Below are positions 16,423-23,149 of a DNA stretch of 64,000 nt, in pieces. The notes below the pieces were generated by a model. That model was not told the origin of the DNA and searched no databases. It saw only the letters and a list, made by a program, of their open reading frames with translations. The stretch spans positions 806,001-870,000 of the forward strand of contig NZ_JALKAA010000002.1 in the NCBI RefSeq assembly GCF_024171605.1, given 5' to 3'. Every line of letters begins with the position of its first letter. The first letter of the stretch is position 1. The translations under genes were made by a program, and so were the position numbers. Source of the stretch: Pontibacter sp. HSC-36F09. Its GTDB lineage: Bacteria > Bacteroidota > Bacteroidia > Cytophagales > Hymenobacteraceae.

Positions 16423-17907
16423 TTATCGAGAATGTTGTGTTGGCGGTGATAATTTGTCAAGAAGAGGTTCCTGGTAATGAATGATGTTGTGCGCCATTCC
16501 TTTAAAAATGACAAAATGAAAAGGCAACATGGCGTACCAGTATAGCCTGCCAGCCAACCCATCCGGGCGGAAAGCGGCCAGTTGTTCTAGGTAGTTGCCC
16601 TCGGCCTCGCGGCTTATTCTAAATTGTAACCAGGCCTCTCCTGGAAGTTTCATTTCAGCATAAAGCAACAGGCGCCCGACTTTGTGGTCTACTGCCAGCA
16701 CGCGCCAGAAATCGATTGAATCGCCGGTCTTTACGTCGATTGGGTGTCTTCGACCACGCTGCAAGCCAACGCCGCCCACCATTTTGTCGAGCAGGCCACG
16801 TAGCTCCCACAGGAAATCAGTCTTGTACCAACCACGCTCACCGCCGATACGCAAAATGTTATCCATCACCTCCTCAGGGGCTCTGTCGAAGCGCATACGC
16901 TGCCGGTCGGTGAGCACGCCGTGTTCTGGTATTTGTACAAAATCCATAAAATCGAGTTGCATATTTCCACTCACCAGTGCATCCTTCCAGCTCGAGACCA
17001 CCATATTCTGCTCCATCTTGGTAAAAGCCAGATTAAGCGCACTCTCGTAGCTCAGGCACTTGTGCGGGATTAACTGCTGTATGCTGCTGTCTTTCACAAC
17101 CGCATCGTTGCGCAGACTCTCCACCAGGCTGCGGGCCAATGTGTAATTGGTGCTCGTAACAAAGTACAACCAGTAAGAGGAAAGCTTGGGTGTGAGCACT
17201 GGCAAGGTATAGATGCGTCGTTTCAGGTTTCGGACTTTAGCCAGTTGCAACAGCATTTGCTTGTAGGTGAGCACATCGGGCCCGCCAATCTCGAAACGCC
17301 TGTCATAACAGTCCGTGCGGCCGAGCACCTCAATCAGGTAAAACATGACGTCGCGTATGGCAATGGGCTGACAGCGGGAGTTGAGCCAGCGGGGTGTTAC
17401 CATTATCGGAAGCTTCTCCACCAGGTCACGGATGATCTCGAAAGAAGCGCTGCCCGAACCGATGATAATAGCGGCGCGGAGTACCGTTAGCCTCGCTTTG
17501 CCCTGGGCAAGTACGTCCTCCACCTGCCGGCGTGAGGTCAGGTGCTTCGACAAATGCGCGTCGTTGGCAATGCCACTGAGGTAGATCACCTGCTTGGCAC
17601 TAGTTGTATCAAGGTAGTTGACGAAGTTCAAAGCAGAAGCTTTCTCGGCCTCCCCAAAGTCTGCGGAGCCGGAGCCCATGGAGTGCACCAGGTAGTAGGC
17701 GGCGTCTATGTTGCGGGGTAAATCCTGCAGACTTTCCGGCTTGAGCAGATCTCCTTTTACCACCTGTACTTTGTCCTGCAGACTTTCCGGCAACTCGAAG
17801 CGACGCGGGTCCCGGACAAAGCAAACGACCTCGTGTTGTGCCTCTATCAGCACAGGCAGGAGTCGTTTGCCAATGTAGCCGTTTGCGCCGGTCAGGAGTA
17901 TCTTCAT
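16423..17907 (-). CDS. SDR-type NAD(P)-binding protein with DUF2867 domain
   Basis: A 494-residue two-domain protein. The N-terminal half is a Rossmann fold with the GANGYIG nucleotide-binding loop at 7-13. It continues NIDAAYYLVHSMGSG, QVIYLSGI, RRQVEDVLAQGKARLTVLRAAIIIGSGSASFE and RFEIGGPDVLTYKQML, as in atypical NmrA-like SDRs. The C-terminal half (about 330-480) is a DUF2867/polyketide-cyclase-like region (GGERGWYKTDFLWELRGLLDKMVGGVGLQRGRRHP). Such fusions are common in Bacteroidota and Actinobacteria and are annotated only as epimerase- or DUF2867-type proteins. The substrate is unknown. Monocistronic. Confidence 0.88.
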   Translation of the reverse strand: MKILLTGANGYIGKRLLPVLIEAQHEVVCFVRDPRRFELPESLQDKVQVVKGDLLKPESLQDLPRNIDAAYYLVHSMGSGSADFGEAEKASALNFVNYLDTTSAKQVIYLSGIANDAHLSKHLTSRRQVEDVLAQGKARLTVLRAAIIIGSGSASFEIIRDLVEKLPIMVTPRWLNSRCQPIAIRDVMFYLIEVLGRTDCYDRRFEIGGPDVLTYKQMLLQLAKVRNLKRRIYTLPVLTPKLSSYWLYFVTSTNYTLARSLVESLRNDAVVKDSSIQQLIPHKCLSYESALNLAFTKMEQNMVVSSWKDALVSGNMQLDFMDFVQIPEHGVLTDRQRMRFDRAPEEVMDNILRIGGERGWYKTDFLWELRGLLDKMVGGVGLQRGRRHPIDVKTGDSIDFWRVLAVDHKVGRLLLYAEMKLPGEAWLQFRISREAEGNYLEQLAAFRPDGLAGRLYWYAMLPFHFVIFKGMAHNIIHYQEPLLDKLSPPTQHSR

Positions 17908-18099: not shown

Positions 18100-18131
18100 T
18101 TTGGATTATTTAAAATGCTGCTCTAGCTTTG
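18100..18131 (+). promoter_or_regulatory. promoter of the met operon
   Basis: TTTG at 18100-18103, then 20 nt, then TAGCTTTG at 18124-18131. This matches the Bacteroidota sigma consensus (TTTG, 19-21 nt, TAnnTTTG). Transcription would begin near 18137, directly before the riboswitch leader. The flanks are very AT-rich. Confidence 0.7.
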
Positions 18132-18143
18132 CATCATCAAGTC

Positions 18144-18266
18144 TGATATCCCTTGTGGGTATCGATTTATAAAGAAGCGCGGAGAGACAGGCTCTGTGAA
18201 GCGCTAGCAACCAGCCCCGAGCAAGGTGCTAATTCCTGATTCCGGAAGTCCGGATGTATATAAATT
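18144..18266 (+). ncRNA. SAM-I riboswitch aptamer
   Basis: The conserved S-box core is present. TGAAGCGCTAGCAACC at 18197-18212 has GCGC at 18177-18180 pairing with 18201-18204 as P2. AAGGTGCTAATTCC is at 18223-18236. P1 can be closed by ATTTATA (18165-18171) with TATAAAT (18259-18265). A small hairpin, CCC ttgt GGG with flanking GATA/TATC, precedes it at about 18144-18163. It lies between the promoter and metY-metX-hom, so S-adenosylmethionine should repress methionine synthesis. No clear Rho-independent terminator follows the aptamer. The next recognisable element is a Cys-rich ORF that starts 11 nt after P1. Confidence 0.88.
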
Positions 18267-18275
18267 GATAACGTT

Positions 18276-18413
18276 ATGGAAAAGGGAACCAAGCCAACAC
18301 AACTTCTTTTATTTTTTACACCGGCAGCTCAATGCCCGGTTCTTTCGCATGCCTATACCTGTGCTACTACCTGCTGTGGCCGAATGTGCATGTGTTGCTG
18401 CTGCTGTTGCTAG
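18276..18413 (+). CDS. Cys-rich leader peptide (uORF) between SAM riboswitch and metY
   Basis: A 45-codon open frame, ATG at 18276-18278 and TAG at 18411-18413. The peptide begins MEKGTKPTQLLLFFTPAAQC and ends TTCCGRMCMCCCCCC. Eleven of 45 residues are Cys and the last six codons before the stop are all Cys (TGT TGC TGC TGC TGT TGC). It sits 11 nt after the aptamer's P1 and about 145 nt before metY. The placement and composition suggest a ribosome-stalling leader that reports cysteine charging, comparable in principle to Cys-attenuator ORFs known in mycobacteria. That role is inference. A run of TGC triplets could also arise as a simple repeat. Confidence 0.5.
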   Translation: MEKGTKPTQLLLFFTPAAQCPVLSHAYTCATTCCGRMCMCCCCCC

Positions 18414-18509
18414 CGCGACCAACCCCCAAACTTTTTGCTGCAATGCCGTCGTGCCTCAGGTAGATCCTGTGAGCGTCCGACTGTAGCCATTTCATTGTTC
18501 TTGTCTTAA

Positions 18510-19891
<1,382 letters not shown>

Positions 19892-19892
<1 letters not shown>

Positions 19893-20950
19893 TGCCTGAA
19901 CAATTAAATTTTCATTACCAGAAACAGTTTCAGCTGGAGTCGGGAGCCTCGCTTCCCGGCTTCCAACTGGCCTATACAACCTATGGACAACTCAACAGAG
20001 AAAAAAGCAATGTGGTGTGGGTATGCCACGCCCTCACGGGCAGCTCGGACTTCACCGATTGGTGGGGCGAATTATTTGGCGAGGGAAAACTATACGACCC
20101 GGCGGACTGGTTTGTGGTTTGTGCGAACACCTTGGGTGGCTCCTATGGATCCACGGGACCACTTTCGGTTAATCCGGAAACGCTGCAACCCTTCTACCAC
20201 AGCTTCCCGCAGCTGACCAACCGGGACATTGTGCGTGCATTTGATCTGCTTCGGCAGGACTTAGGTATAGCGCAGGTGCATACCTTGCTTGGTGGCTCGC
20301 TGGGCGGGCAGCAGGCACTGGAGTGGGCCATTTTACAGCCGGAGGTTTTCCAGAACCTGATCCAGGTAGCATCCAATGCGCGGCATTCGGCCTGGGGCAT
20401 CGCCTTCAATGAAAGCCAGCGCATGGCCATCCGGCAGGACCCAACCTGGGCGACTAATACACGGGAAGCAGGTATAGCGGGACTCAAAACGGCCCGTGCC
20501 ATCGCCATGCTTTCTTACAGGCACTATACCTGCTACGAGGAGAGTCAGCAGGAGCCGGGCAACAGCATTACCGACGATTTCAGGGCGGCCTCTTATCAGG
20601 TATATCAAGGTGAAAAACTGGCCAATCGCTTCAATGCCTATACCTACTGGCTGCTCTCCAAAGCCATGGACTCGCATAACATCGGCCGCGACAGGGGAGG
20701 AGTCGAGAAGGCCTTGGGTCGCCTTCAGGCCAAAGCGCTTTTTGTCGGGGTGGACACCGACCTGCTCTTTCCGATAGAAGAGCAACAGCAGCTGCACCGG
20801 CTGGTCCCGGGCTCCCGCTTCGCACTCCTCCACTCCGGCTACGGGCACGACGGATTTTTAGTGGAAACGGCACAACTCACGCAGGCCATCCGGGAATTTT
20901 ATGAAACAGAAACAGTAAAGCACATTCACTATGAAAATACAGAAGTTTAA
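19892..20950 (+). CDS. metX: homoserine O-acetyltransferase
   Basis: Alpha/beta-hydrolase acyltransferase that makes the MetY substrate O-acetylhomoserine. Its 352 residues are normal for MetX. The nucleophile serine lies in LLGGSLGGQQALEWA, and the catalytic Asp/His are in the late FVGVDTDLLFP and GYGHDGFLVE. The substrate-pocket segment LTGSSDFTDWWGELFGEGKLYDP and NTLGGSYGSTGPLSVNP match the family. Whether acetyl- or succinyl-CoA is used cannot be read safely; pairing with MetY favours acetyl. It overlaps metY by 1 nt and hom by 20 nt, strong evidence for one transcript. Confidence 0.95.
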
Positions 20951-22193
20951 AAAGCGCATCGGGCTGATCGGCTTTGGCTGCGTTGGGCAGGGATTGTATG
21001 ATGTGGTAGAAGCCAACCGGCACCTGGGCTGGGAGATCGGCAGTATCTGCGTAAAAGACAAAGAAAAACCACGCTCCCTGCCAGCCTCCGCCTTCACCTA
21101 CGATGTGCAGGAGGTGCTGCAGGATCCAAGCCTCGATATCATTGCAGAGTTGATCAGCGATCCCAAAGAGGCGCTTGTCATAATCCGGCAAGCCCTGCAA
21201 CAGGGCAAAACCGTGGTGTCGGCTAACAAAAAAGTGGTTGCCGAAAACCTGCCGGAACTGATCCAACTGCAGCAGCGGCACGGAGGTGTGTTGTTGTATG
21301 AAGCCTCCGTGTGCGGCAGTATACCTGTGCTGCGCACACTTGAGGCCTACTATGGCTCGGAGCCGCTGGTTGAAGTGCGCGGGATTCTGAATGGATCTTC
21401 TAATTATATATTAAGTAAGCTGCACGCAGAGCACGGTAATTTTCAGTCTGCCCTGGCGCAGGCGCAGGAGCTGGGATTTGCGGAGGCCGACCCGTCGCTG
21501 GACGTGGAGGGAACGGATGCGTTGCACAAACTTTGCATTATGGCGGCGCATGCCTATGGTTTGCTGGTGCACCCGGATGAGGTGCTGCACTTTGGTATCC
21601 AGCACATTACCTCCGAAGCCGTTGAGCTGGCCGATGCATTAGGTTGCCGGATCAAGCTGGTCGGGTCTTTAAAAGCTGCCGCAGACGGAGAGGTTGCACT
21701 ACAGTTGCTGCCAACGTTTATACCTGAGGGTGATGCTTTGTATGAGGTGGAAGCGGAATTTAATGGACTGGAGATAGAGGGGCGGTTCGCCGGGAAGCAG
21801 TTCCTGAAAGGGCGTGGTGCCGGCAGTCACCCGACCGGATCGGCTGTATGGGCCGATGTTGCAGCGGCTGTGCGCGGCTACCGCTATACCTACCCCAAGC
21901 TTTGCACCAGCCAGGTGTCTGCCACATCCGGAGATGAGCAGCTCACTGTTTTGCTACAAGGCACGGAAGAGCGTGTTGCGGAGTTACTGGAATTGCTGAA
22001 GCCTGCCATCCAGCACCAAACGCCAGACCAAAGCCAGGTCATCCTGTCACTGACGCCACAGCAACTAAGGCAACACCAGGACCTGCTGAACCAACGAGGT
22101 ATTTTCGTAGCGGCCATACCGGCAAGTGTACCGCTTGATATAATACCAGAAGCGTTTAGTCAAACAGAGGCTATACCTATAGGAAGCTTATAA
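20931..22193 (+). CDS. hom: homoserine dehydrogenase
   Basis: NAD(P)-dependent enzyme that reduces aspartate semialdehyde to homoserine and so feeds MetX. Its 420 residues cover a Rossmann domain (IGLIGFGCVGQGLYDVV), the VSANKKVVAENL loop, and the catalytic domain with GILNGSSNYILSKL and EADPSLDVEGTDALHKL. About 90 C-terminal residues (YPKLCTSQVSATSGDEQL onward) could be a divergent ACT-like tail. It is the last biosynthetic gene of the SAM-riboswitch operon, so the branch-point enzyme is under methionine control. The convergent lysC provides the upstream step of the same pathway. Confidence 0.95.
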   Translation: MKIQKFKKRIGLIGFGCVGQGLYDVVEANRHLGWEIGSICVKDKEKPRSLPASAFTYDVQEVLQDPSLDIIAELISDPKEALVIIRQALQQGKTVVSANKKVVAENLPELIQLQQRHGGVLLYEASVCGSIPVLRTLEAYYGSEPLVEVRGILNGSSNYILSKLHAEHGNFQSALAQAQELGFAEADPSLDVEGTDALHKLCIMAAHAYGLLVHPDEVLHFGIQHITSEAVELADALGCRIKLVGSLKAAADGEVALQLLPTFIPEGDALYEVEAEFNGLEIEGRFAGKQFLKGRGAGSHPTGSAVWADVAAAVRGYRYTYPKLCTSQVSATSGDEQLTVLLQGTEERVAELLELLKPAIQHQTPDQSQVILSLTPQQLRQHQDLLNQRGIFVAAIPASVPLDIIPEAFSQTEAIPIGSL

Positions 22194-22459: not shown

Positions 22460-23149
22460 ATGAAAATCTATATACCCTGGCTCAGCTCTCTACTTCTGAT
22501 AATTATATTTTCATCATGTAGGAACGACAACGTATCGCCTATCCGGAACGTGCGTTTTGACCCCGGTCTGTTAAATCCGCTGCAAGCGGCCGGTAGTATA
22601 CCCTGCACTGCGCATACCTATTATTATAATGGTGCGGAAAAGTCGCTGGGCACGGTTTACAGTGGCATGATTCTTCTGTCGTTCAGCGACGAACTGAGTC
22701 ATGAGCAGGCCACGGCCGCAGCGGCACGTCATGGGTTTATAGAGCAACTCGGACAGCCGATCCAGACAAACTCCGCCCGGCTGTATCCGGCCAAAATGGC
22801 TCCGGGCCTCAACTGCCGGCAGGTAGAAGTGGCGCTTTCTGAAATTTCAAAAGATCCGGCCCTGGACTACGCCGCCCCTTATTTTGAATCGGCAGGCGGA
22901 CAGCTGCTAGGTGTATCAAACGAATTTATAGTGGTGGTAGAAGAGGGCAAGCTACCAACTGCACAGGTGCTGAAGCGCCTAAGTGGGGCAACCGGAACTG
23001 AAGTGGTGAGCGCCCTGAGCGAAGATACCTTTGTGCTGCGCGCCAATAAGAACTCCCAGGGCAATGCCCTTGAAATGGCAAACTTTTTCAACAAGCATCC
23101 GCTTATAAAACATGCTGAGCCAGATTTTGTGGTTTCGCTGGCCATGTAA
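22460..23149 (+). CDS. lipoprotein with two subtilase-propeptide-like modules
   Basis: A 229-residue lipoprotein whose signal sequence ends LLLIIIFSSC (lipobox Cys near residue 20). Two similar modules follow: residues about 67-140 (GMILLSFSDELSHEQATAAAARHGF ... DPALDYAAPYF) and about 150-228 (NEFIVVVEEGKLPTAQVLKRL ... HPLIKHAEPDFVVSL). Both have the beta-strand, Ala-rich helix and final Y/H-A-x-P-x-F of subtilisin propeptides/inhibitor I9. No protease domain is attached or adjacent, so it may be a free-standing inhibitor or chaperone; this is inference. It is separated from hom by 266 AT-rich nt and ends in a strong terminator. Confidence 0.7.
   Translation: MKIYIPWLSSLLLIIIFSSCRNDNVSPIRNVRFDPGLLNPLQAAGSIPCTAHTYYYNGAEKSLGTVYSGMILLSFSDELSHEQATAAAARHGFIEQLGQPIQTNSARLYPAKMAPGLNCRQVEVALSEISKDPALDYAAPYFESAGGQLLGVSNEFIVVVEEGKLPTAQVLKRLSGATGTEVVSALSEDTFVLRANKNSQGNALEMANFFNKHPLIKHAEPDFVVSLAM

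Follow-up and report, generated by a model that had tools for sequence, protein, structure and literature searches.

Organisation of the metY leader in Pontibacter sp. HSC-36F09

The window, the whole stretch of 64,000 nt that was analysed, lies in a genome of 4.4 Mb in 19 contigs and carries, in order along the plus strand, a promoter-like site, a hairpin, a SAM-I aptamer, a 45-codon open reading frame (ORF) with six terminal Cys codons, a 144-nt spacer and the genes metY-metX-hom. The features are as follows, in window coordinates.

18100..18131, plus strand: Bacteroidota-type promoter TTTG-N20-TAGCTTTG (TTTG at 18100-18103, a 20-nt spacer, TAGCTTTG at 18124-18131), read directly in the sequence and of the Bacteroidota consensus type
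18139..18168, plus strand: 5' hairpin, candidate anti-P1 element, which overlaps the P1 5' strand and would exclude P1 formation
18164..18266, plus strand: SAM-I (S-box) riboswitch aptamer (RF00162, 76.6 bits, E 3.2e-16, cut-off 44.4)
18259-18266, plus strand: P1 3' strand, ending 9 nt ahead of the ATG of the upstream ORF (uORF)
18276..18413, plus strand: poly-Cys leader uORF of 45 codons, 11 of them Cys, with the translation MEKGTKPTQLLLFFTPAAQCPVLSHAYTCATTCCGRMCMCCCCCC followed by the stop
18393..18410, plus strand: six-Cys run TGT TGC TGC TGC TGT TGC, then the TAG stop at 18411-18413
18414..18557, plus strand: spacer from the uORF stop to metY with an excess of C over G, candidate Rho-loading or output region
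18457..18469, plus strand: CAGG-UAGAU-CCUG hairpin core, recurrent in metY leaders according to the consensus fold of 30 aligned metY leaders
18558..19892, plus strand: metY, O-acetylhomoserine sulfhydrylase, the proposed regulated gene (TIGR01326, 694.6 bits, cut-off 495.1)
19892..20950, plus strand: metX-like homoserine O-acetyltransferase of the operon (TIGR01392, 350.2 bits, E 1.2e-104, under the curated cut-off of 500)
20931..22193, plus strand: homoserine dehydrogenase of the operon (NF004976, 312.8 bits, cut-off 205)

Family matches and the sequence itself bear out the order of promoter, aptamer, ORF and operon proposed in the original prediction, the aptamer scoring above the curated cut-off of RF00162, and the translation of 18276-18413 agrees with the frame described there, with 11 Cys codons and the last six consecutive before TAG. 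The distances given there need one correction, the uORF ATG standing 9 rather than 11 nt behind the aptamer, while the gap of about 145 nt to metY is sound (144 nt from the uORF stop to the metY ATG at 18558). A very similar uORF is found in Pontibacter lucknowensis (L253), and sites resembling TAnnTTTG were seen by eye 5' of most of 50 leaders inspected. As to the neighbours, a divergent gene at 16423-17907 on the minus strand carries NAD(P)-binding and DUF2867 domains, and a 229-aa ORF after hom (22460-23149) gave zero Pfam or NCBIfam matches at the thresholds applied.

Recurrence of the uORF among SAM-I sites

The comparison drew on 139 distinct SAM-I sites, mostly of the same genus as the window, 39 of them before metH and 100 not, and a uORF was scored where an ATG-started ORF had at least three Cys among its last 15 residues. 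Such a uORF is present at 90 of the 100 non-metH sites as against none of the 39 metH sites, the rate expected by chance being 1.4% (5000 dinucleotide shuffles). A run of three or more Cys is found in 85 of the 90, the other five having scattered Cys without such a run, and in all 90 leaders the ATG lies 38-56 nt 3' of the GGTGC motif. The original prediction had named a lack of conservation in related leaders as the outcome that would speak against it; this is contradicted by the recurrence of uORF and Cys tail before sulfur genes, and the poly-Cys ORF behind the SAM-I aptamer is confirmed as real rather than a product of chance.

The genes downstream of the uORF leaders fall into metY, cysH, sulfite reductase, siroheme, transporter and ATP-grasp classes. 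Labels were taken from representative proteins (metH, cysH, nhaC-like, NirA/sulfite reductase-like, SusC, CysG N-terminal domain, O-succinylhomoserine sulfhydrylase-like and, weakly, RimK/ATP-grasp) and extended to the other members by BLAST clustering; several representatives are cut proteins below the curated whole-protein cut-offs, so that the gene names are class labels and uncertain. Within the cysteine pathway lie metY, cysH, the sulfite reductase-like genes and the siroheme synthase domain, as well as cysS behind the SAM-free copies described below, and for the leaders of nhaC-like, SusC-like and ATP-grasp genes the pathway link to cysteine is not clear.

Searching 36 genomes for five Cys codons followed by TAR gave 30 matches in 20 genomes, and a reversed control pattern gave none. 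Twenty-two of the matches adjoin listed SAM-I sites and one more adjoins the aptamer at locus L274; at the other seven (L267-L273) an aptamer at the gathering score was not found. Six of these (L267-L272) resemble chance frames inside other sequence and were rejected as aptamer-less leaders. The seventh, L273, is a 66-codon stop-to-stop frame on the minus strand with six terminal Cys, 190 nt ahead of a SusC-like gene and without a SAM aptamer at the gathering score.

Among the SAM-I sites fetched, the metY uORF is missing in three of 37 genomes of the genus, and that of locus L014 appears degenerate. Three metZ-like sites have no uORF, and there the start codon of the gene itself follows the GGTGC motif at 46-48 nt; the uORF thus occupies the position of a riboswitch-controlled gene. 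A second short ORF with an MGN start, rich in Met and Arg and with a Cys-rich end, follows 3' of the first poly-Cys uORF at L042 and L044 and, judged by eye, at L073, L078, L084 and L128, all six upstream of SusC-like or nhaC-like genes.

Evolution of the uORF and its Cys tail

In 84 uORFs, the last 12 residues are 50% Cys and all others 1%. The Cys codons are mixed (301 TGT and 223 TGC), the longest run of an identical codon being mostly 2-3, and the length of the Cys run differs between sites. Across 40 close pairs, the uORF body carries 120 synonymous single changes where 119.8 are expected, and 308 others where 308.2 are expected, so the body peptide appears to drift without constraint, as if neutral. 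Applied to Cys codons, including those outside the run, the same pair test gave 37 synonymous and 32 other changes against 34.1 and 32.9 expected; amino-acid changes are not depleted, so single Cys codons show weak pairwise constraint, and the case rests on the tail recurring in distant leaders. When 61 pairs were compared without gaps, the last five codons, counted from the stop, showed 61 nonsynonymous and 49 synonymous changes among 305 codons (ratio 1.24) and codons 2-16, counted from the start, 315 and 88 among 915 (ratio 3.58), though here, as in all pair and leader statistics, members share sequences, are not independent and carry no tree correction. Clustered codons of the presumed regulating residue are kept despite drift elsewhere, as in amino-acid leader peptides, and a tail that persists on an apparently neutral body is in line with a leader peptide that is irrelevant as a product.

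Cys tails without a SAM aptamer

The pattern of six Cys codons plus stop occurs eight times in a sample of 198 genomes of the phylum, against four matches for the reversed control, and a SAM aptamer accompanies two of the eight, the window itself and L280, which lies before cysH. Two others, L278 (1500-1520, plus strand) and L279 (minus strand), are poly-Cys mini-ORFs 60 nt ahead of a cysteinyl-tRNA synthetase gene (PF01406), with no SAM aptamer found at the gathering score. The related ORFs at L283 (minus strand) and L284 (plus strand) end in MRMCCCCCC(C) and a stop, directly after TACATTTG and 52-53 nt before a gene of the PhyH family, and no aptamer was found there either. L277 and L281 resemble chance frames and were set aside. 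Cys uORFs in cysS leaders of Rhodobacterales have already been proposed as attenuators, according to the excerpted account in PMC8632094, so the cysS copies provide a SAM-independent link of the tail to Cys-tRNA.

Distribution across Bacteroidota

Scanning GTDB contigs for the aptamer motif followed by four Cys codons at the proper distance returned at least 116 stretches. Among the matches listed, 45 have GCAACC 5' of the motif; Rfam confirmed SAM-I in 42 of the 44 GCAACC stretches run (L241 was left out) and in none of the four others run, and the remaining 67 were judged on the motif only. Confirmed carriers among these matches include Cyclobacteriaceae, Fulvivirga, Chryseolinea, Microscillaceae, Saprospiraceae, Lewinella, Chitinophagales, Mucilaginibacter, Psychroflexus, Hymenobacter, Rufibacter, Cesiribacter and Pontibacter, and all group-named members of the 42 confirmed loci presumably belong to Bacteroidota. 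Rfam found no aptamer at L209 (Pseudomonas) or L247 (an archaeon).

A uORF is present at 46 of 47 further aptamer-bearing loci (the 42 plus L241, L274, L280, L323 and L324), the sole miss being L172, where the Cys run is internal; 45 of these loci came to light via their Cys codons (L323 and L324 did not), so this figure shows spread and not frequency. Behind the 46 uORFs stand 30 genes of the metY/Z class, two cysH, two SusC-like, one sulfite reductase-like and one ATP-grasp gene, and ten without a BLAST label, of which L180, L254 and L258 look metX-like by eye and L154, L245 and L259 ferredoxin-like.

In the unconditioned phylum sample, RF00162 is present in 167 of the 198 genomes. The uORF was found at two of 40 SAM-I sites picked across families (L323 and L324), with L315, L327, L343 and L351 unscored as the motif failed, and at none of the 30 best-scoring SAM-I sites of the phylum sample. 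Taken together, the genus, scan and phylum samples indicate an arrangement that is common in the genus of the window and turns up repeatedly but patchily outside it, the sites sampled in many lineages being without it. In one distant family, 18 SAM-I sites (L285-L298, L300, L302, L303 and L310) share a short frame with an MMYA or MMVC start about 35 nt past the motif, which has no Cys tail at any of them and may reflect nucleotide conservation rather than coding.

Coupling of the aptamer to the uORF start

In 86 uORF leaders, the P1 sequence UAUAAA lies mostly 8-13 nt from the uORF ATG. In predicted folds of these leaders, the uORF start region (-18 to +5) is unpaired at 0.36-0.50, depending on class, with P1 formed, and at 0.74-0.93 in folds of the 3' part by itself, an upper bound in that the aptamer is omitted by design. 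The uORF start is thus located where, by these predictions, P1 would conceal it, in keeping with the proposal of the original prediction that the aptamer sits beside the start.

The hairpin 5' of the aptamer has an energy of -10.5 kcal/mol in a 38-nt segment. Its mean z-score is -2.58 at 43 metY/Z-class sites and -2.68 at eight ATP-grasp sites, and the same test did not give a clear hairpin in cysH, nhaC, sir or susC leaders. An alignment of 30 of the 38 metY-class leaders listed, with the eight ATP-grasp leaders left out, has 86.1% of cells paired and five of 12 pairs changed on both sides, values reached by two and one of 500 shuffles, respectively. Sliding the partner columns by 1-3 lowers the paired cells to 28-53%, but a slide of -1 has six double-change pairs, so the double-change count alone is not decisive for this hairpin. 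In the fold of the window without SAM, an extended P1 is the minimum and the upstream hairpin a minority state with a probability of at most 0.37. There, UCCCUU (18149-18154) pairs with AAGGGA (18282-18287, codons 3-4), the A and U of the AUG being paired as well. This predicted pairing with AAGGGA, seen in the fold of the window alone, could account for the MxKG start that recurs in metY-class uORFs. The position of the hairpin suggests that it could act as an anti-P1 element.

The aptamer core (18201-18211, GCGCTAGCAAC) is perfectly complementary over 11 nt to the uORF end (18406-18416), and long complementarity of this kind is also seen in close relatives, not across gene classes. In 84 leaders, it averages 6.26 nt within the own locus against 6.04 nt in swapped pairs, with two of 1000 shuffles as high; by class, 23 of 1000 shuffles are as high for metY, 580 for cysH and 1000 for nhaC. 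A core-to-end pairing was set aside as a lineage effect.

Output of the leader

Access to the main start hardly changes in folds with the Cys run and stop blocked (mean +0.008, median +0.002 in 82 leaders), and the masking of the main-gene start by the Cys run that marks mycobacterial-type leaders was not found. The original prediction had expected ribosome stalling to expose or hide metY, which does not hold in these folds, as start access is unchanged when the run is blocked. Intrinsic terminators are not enriched, terminator-like hairpins occurring in 11 of 89 leaders and 45 of 356 shuffles; at this shuffle level they were rejected as a general output, and the terminator/antiterminator pair of a classical leader-peptide attenuator was likewise not found. 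At two of four uORF-less SAM-I sites scanned, L001 and L003, a clear intrinsic terminator stands directly before the gene. A single conserved fold 3' of the uORF stop was not found, the 30-leader metY alignment giving one small hairpin and subsets of nine and eight leaders giving more; in most members of the subset of eight, a AGGUAUAA/UUAUACCU helix is seen by eye a few nt past the stop.

The leaders are rich in C and poor in G, the difference of C minus G being +0.149 in uORF bodies and +0.078 after the stop (90 leaders), compared with +0.017 in main genes and -0.008 in metH leaders, and a rho gene is present in the genome. This combination is what a Rho-type output calls for and is suggestive. 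With neither an unmasked start nor an excess of terminators in the predictions, the favoured candidate for the output is Rho-dependent termination within the C-rich leader, and the output is more likely transcriptional.

Proposed model: a SAM-gated cysteine leader peptide

The best explanation, and a probable one, is a two-input RNA attenuator in which SAM gates a cysteine leader peptide. Transcription would begin just 5' of the aptamer. At high SAM, P1 would close and, as its AU-rich 3' strand lies 10-17 nt ahead of the uORF AUG, keep the uORF untranslated; in metY leaders, the competing form without SAM would be the 5' hairpin, which would capture the P1 5' strand. At low SAM, the uORF would be translated and the Cys run just before its stop would gauge Cys-tRNA, ribosomes finishing and leaving when cysteine is plentiful and stalling within the run under cysteine shortage. 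With a ribosome parked at the uORF end, the transcript would continue into metY-metX-hom, whereas absence of the ribosome at high SAM or its departure at high cysteine would leave the C-rich, G-poor leader naked for Rho to end transcription, so that the operon would be on only when SAM and Cys-tRNA are both low.

SAM-I switches usually repress at high SAM. If SAM stops translation of the uORF and must in this way switch the operon off, the untranslated state is the off state and a stalled ribosome the sole on state, which amounts to AND logic; an OR gate would require the untranslated leader to be on. The masking of Rho termination by a parked ribosome would fit the C bias, the rho gene and the Cys run right before the stop. 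What sequence comparison establishes is how the leader is built, that it recurs, that Cys tail and frame persist while the body appears neutral, and which genes are concerned. From these, control of the uORF by SAM is very probable and its sensing of Cys-tRNA equally so, the AND logic is rather likely, and Rho as the output is a tentative choice. The integration of SAM and cysteine signals advanced in the original prediction is well supported by the comparison, and its stalling-dependent exposure of metY is the part left unsupported.

Alternative explanations

A translational output as in mycobacteria, in which RNA of the Cys run pairs with the metY start region and a stalled ribosome frees the start, is unlikely here. 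In its favour, the excerpts of PMC13236596 and PMC9031893 present the poly-Cys leaders of M. smegmatis as acting by translational attenuation, which can involve pairing of the uORF over a ribosome site; moreover, start access rises by more than 0.05 in ten of the 82 leaders once the run is blocked. Five leaders lose as much, however, a control block produces five gains and six losses, the mean gain is negligible, as given above, and the spacing from uORF to gene varies from 91 to over 300 nt. The riboswitch might instead control only the uORF, whose translation would protect the mRNA, with the Cys run decorative or a pause unrelated to cysteine. The neutral body of the uORF peptide agrees with such a simple tandem, as does the B12 switch of M. 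tuberculosis ppe2, which controls a uORF on which the main gene depends (from the part of PMC11260477 drawn on here), but the Cys-rich ends of 90 leaders with largely unrelated bodies, their absence before metH and the SAM-free cysS copies would go unexplained, which makes it improbable.

Slightly less probable still is metal sensing, in which a Cys-rich nascent C-terminus would bind copper or zinc. Its model would be Bordetella CruR, presented in the excerpts of PMC9426467 as a copper-sensing uORF with a Cys motif (CXXC) upstream of a TonB-dependent transporter and with Rho as output, and some poly-Cys uORFs do precede SusC/TonB genes. The downstream genes are mostly those of sulfur assimilation, however, the SAM-free copies precede cysS, and the tails are contiguous Cys, with no fixed motif or common residue pattern after them by eye. 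That the ORF is a microsatellite or arose by chance can hardly be credited: TGY runs are of low complexity and vary in length, a part of the microsatellite argument raised in the original prediction that stands, and six Cys codons plus stop are rare in both directions in the 198 genomes, but the mixture of TGT and TGC codons contradicts simple repeat expansion, and the fixed start position, the 1.4% shuffle rate and the count of 30 forward to no reversed five-Cys matches in 36 genomes speak against both origins.

Relation to known leaders

The proposed SAM-gated cysteine leader peptide has separate precedents for its parts. Leaderless poly-Cys short ORFs of mycobacteria mediate cysteine-responsive attenuation in M. 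smegmatis (Canestrari et al. 2020, as cited in the excerpts of PMC9094748, PMC9031893 and PMC13236596), and the extract of PMC1262725 describes leader peptides of actinobacterial cys operons with a Cys run near the stop and no obvious terminators, for which Rho was suggested. The window ORF resembles both as a short ORF with a Cys run near its stop and without obvious terminators, and differs from the mycobacterial ORFs, which are leaderless and carry no mention of a riboswitch in those excerpts, in standing behind a SAM-I aptamer, in Bacteroidota, with no predicted unmasking of the main start. Ribosome-mediated attenuation has also been proposed for the uORFC-8-2 motif, a uORF with Cys codons before cysS in Rhodobacterales, which, as outlined in the portion of PMC8632094 consulted, differs in having two tandem Cys codons, an intrinsic-terminator stem with a U-run and no riboswitch, and in belonging to alpha-proteobacteria.

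The M. tuberculosis ppe2 leader is alike in that a riboswitch governs a uORF needed by the downstream gene; it differs in its B12 aptamer and its termination-reinitiation onto the main gene, and the excerpted text describes no amino-acid sensing by the uORF (PMC11260477). The enterobacterial mgtL/mgtA leader similarly combines alternative structures, a uORF sensitive to elongation rate and Rho-dependent termination, in the extract of PMC11552253, and differs in responding to Mg2+ and to proline or acidic residues, with no SAM-I aptamer and no Cys run. SAM-I riboswitches with the ribosome site in the P1 3' strand, as seen in part of PMC2258182, are likewise similar, but control the gene itself, whereas the window SAM-I is proposed to control a sensor ORF. 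A flavobacterial transcriptome study reports leader-peptide attenuation before amino-acid operons and, in its excerpts, does not mention SAM-I with poly-Cys (PMC9723704), and no SAM-I plus poly-Cys leader was found in the CC-licensed PMC literature, subscription papers being outside the scope of the search. Poly-Cys attenuators, riboswitch-controlled uORFs and leaders joining structure, uORF and Rho are thus each on record, and the apparently new part is the combination of SAM-I with a poly-Cys ORF.

Implications for sulfur regulation in Bacteroidota

A broader reading, held as a possibility that is somewhat doubtful as a whole, is that a composite RNA gate governs a widespread sulfur regulon of Bacteroidota: SAM-I would act directly on a sensor ORF rather than on a metabolic gene, the poly-Cys ORF would set the output via Rho, the anti-P1 hairpin would be the switch partner in metY leaders and the Cys module would be separable. 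Among the sites read, control would be divided by gene, metH responding to SAM only, the genes of sulfide and sulfate assimilation to SAM and cysteine, and cysS, in two other genomes, to cysteine only. If this is true, riboswitches can act via a sensor ORF as an intermediate, many short ORFs would be marked as likely translated sensors, and the leader would constitute a natural RNA AND gate and a testable attenuation model for Bacteroidota. The SAM and cysteine sensors would then be separable modules, joined or kept apart by gene during evolution, with the aptamer deciding whether the cysteine sensor is read at all, and a single leader would read both ends of sulfur metabolism, SAM and Cys-tRNA, without a regulatory protein.
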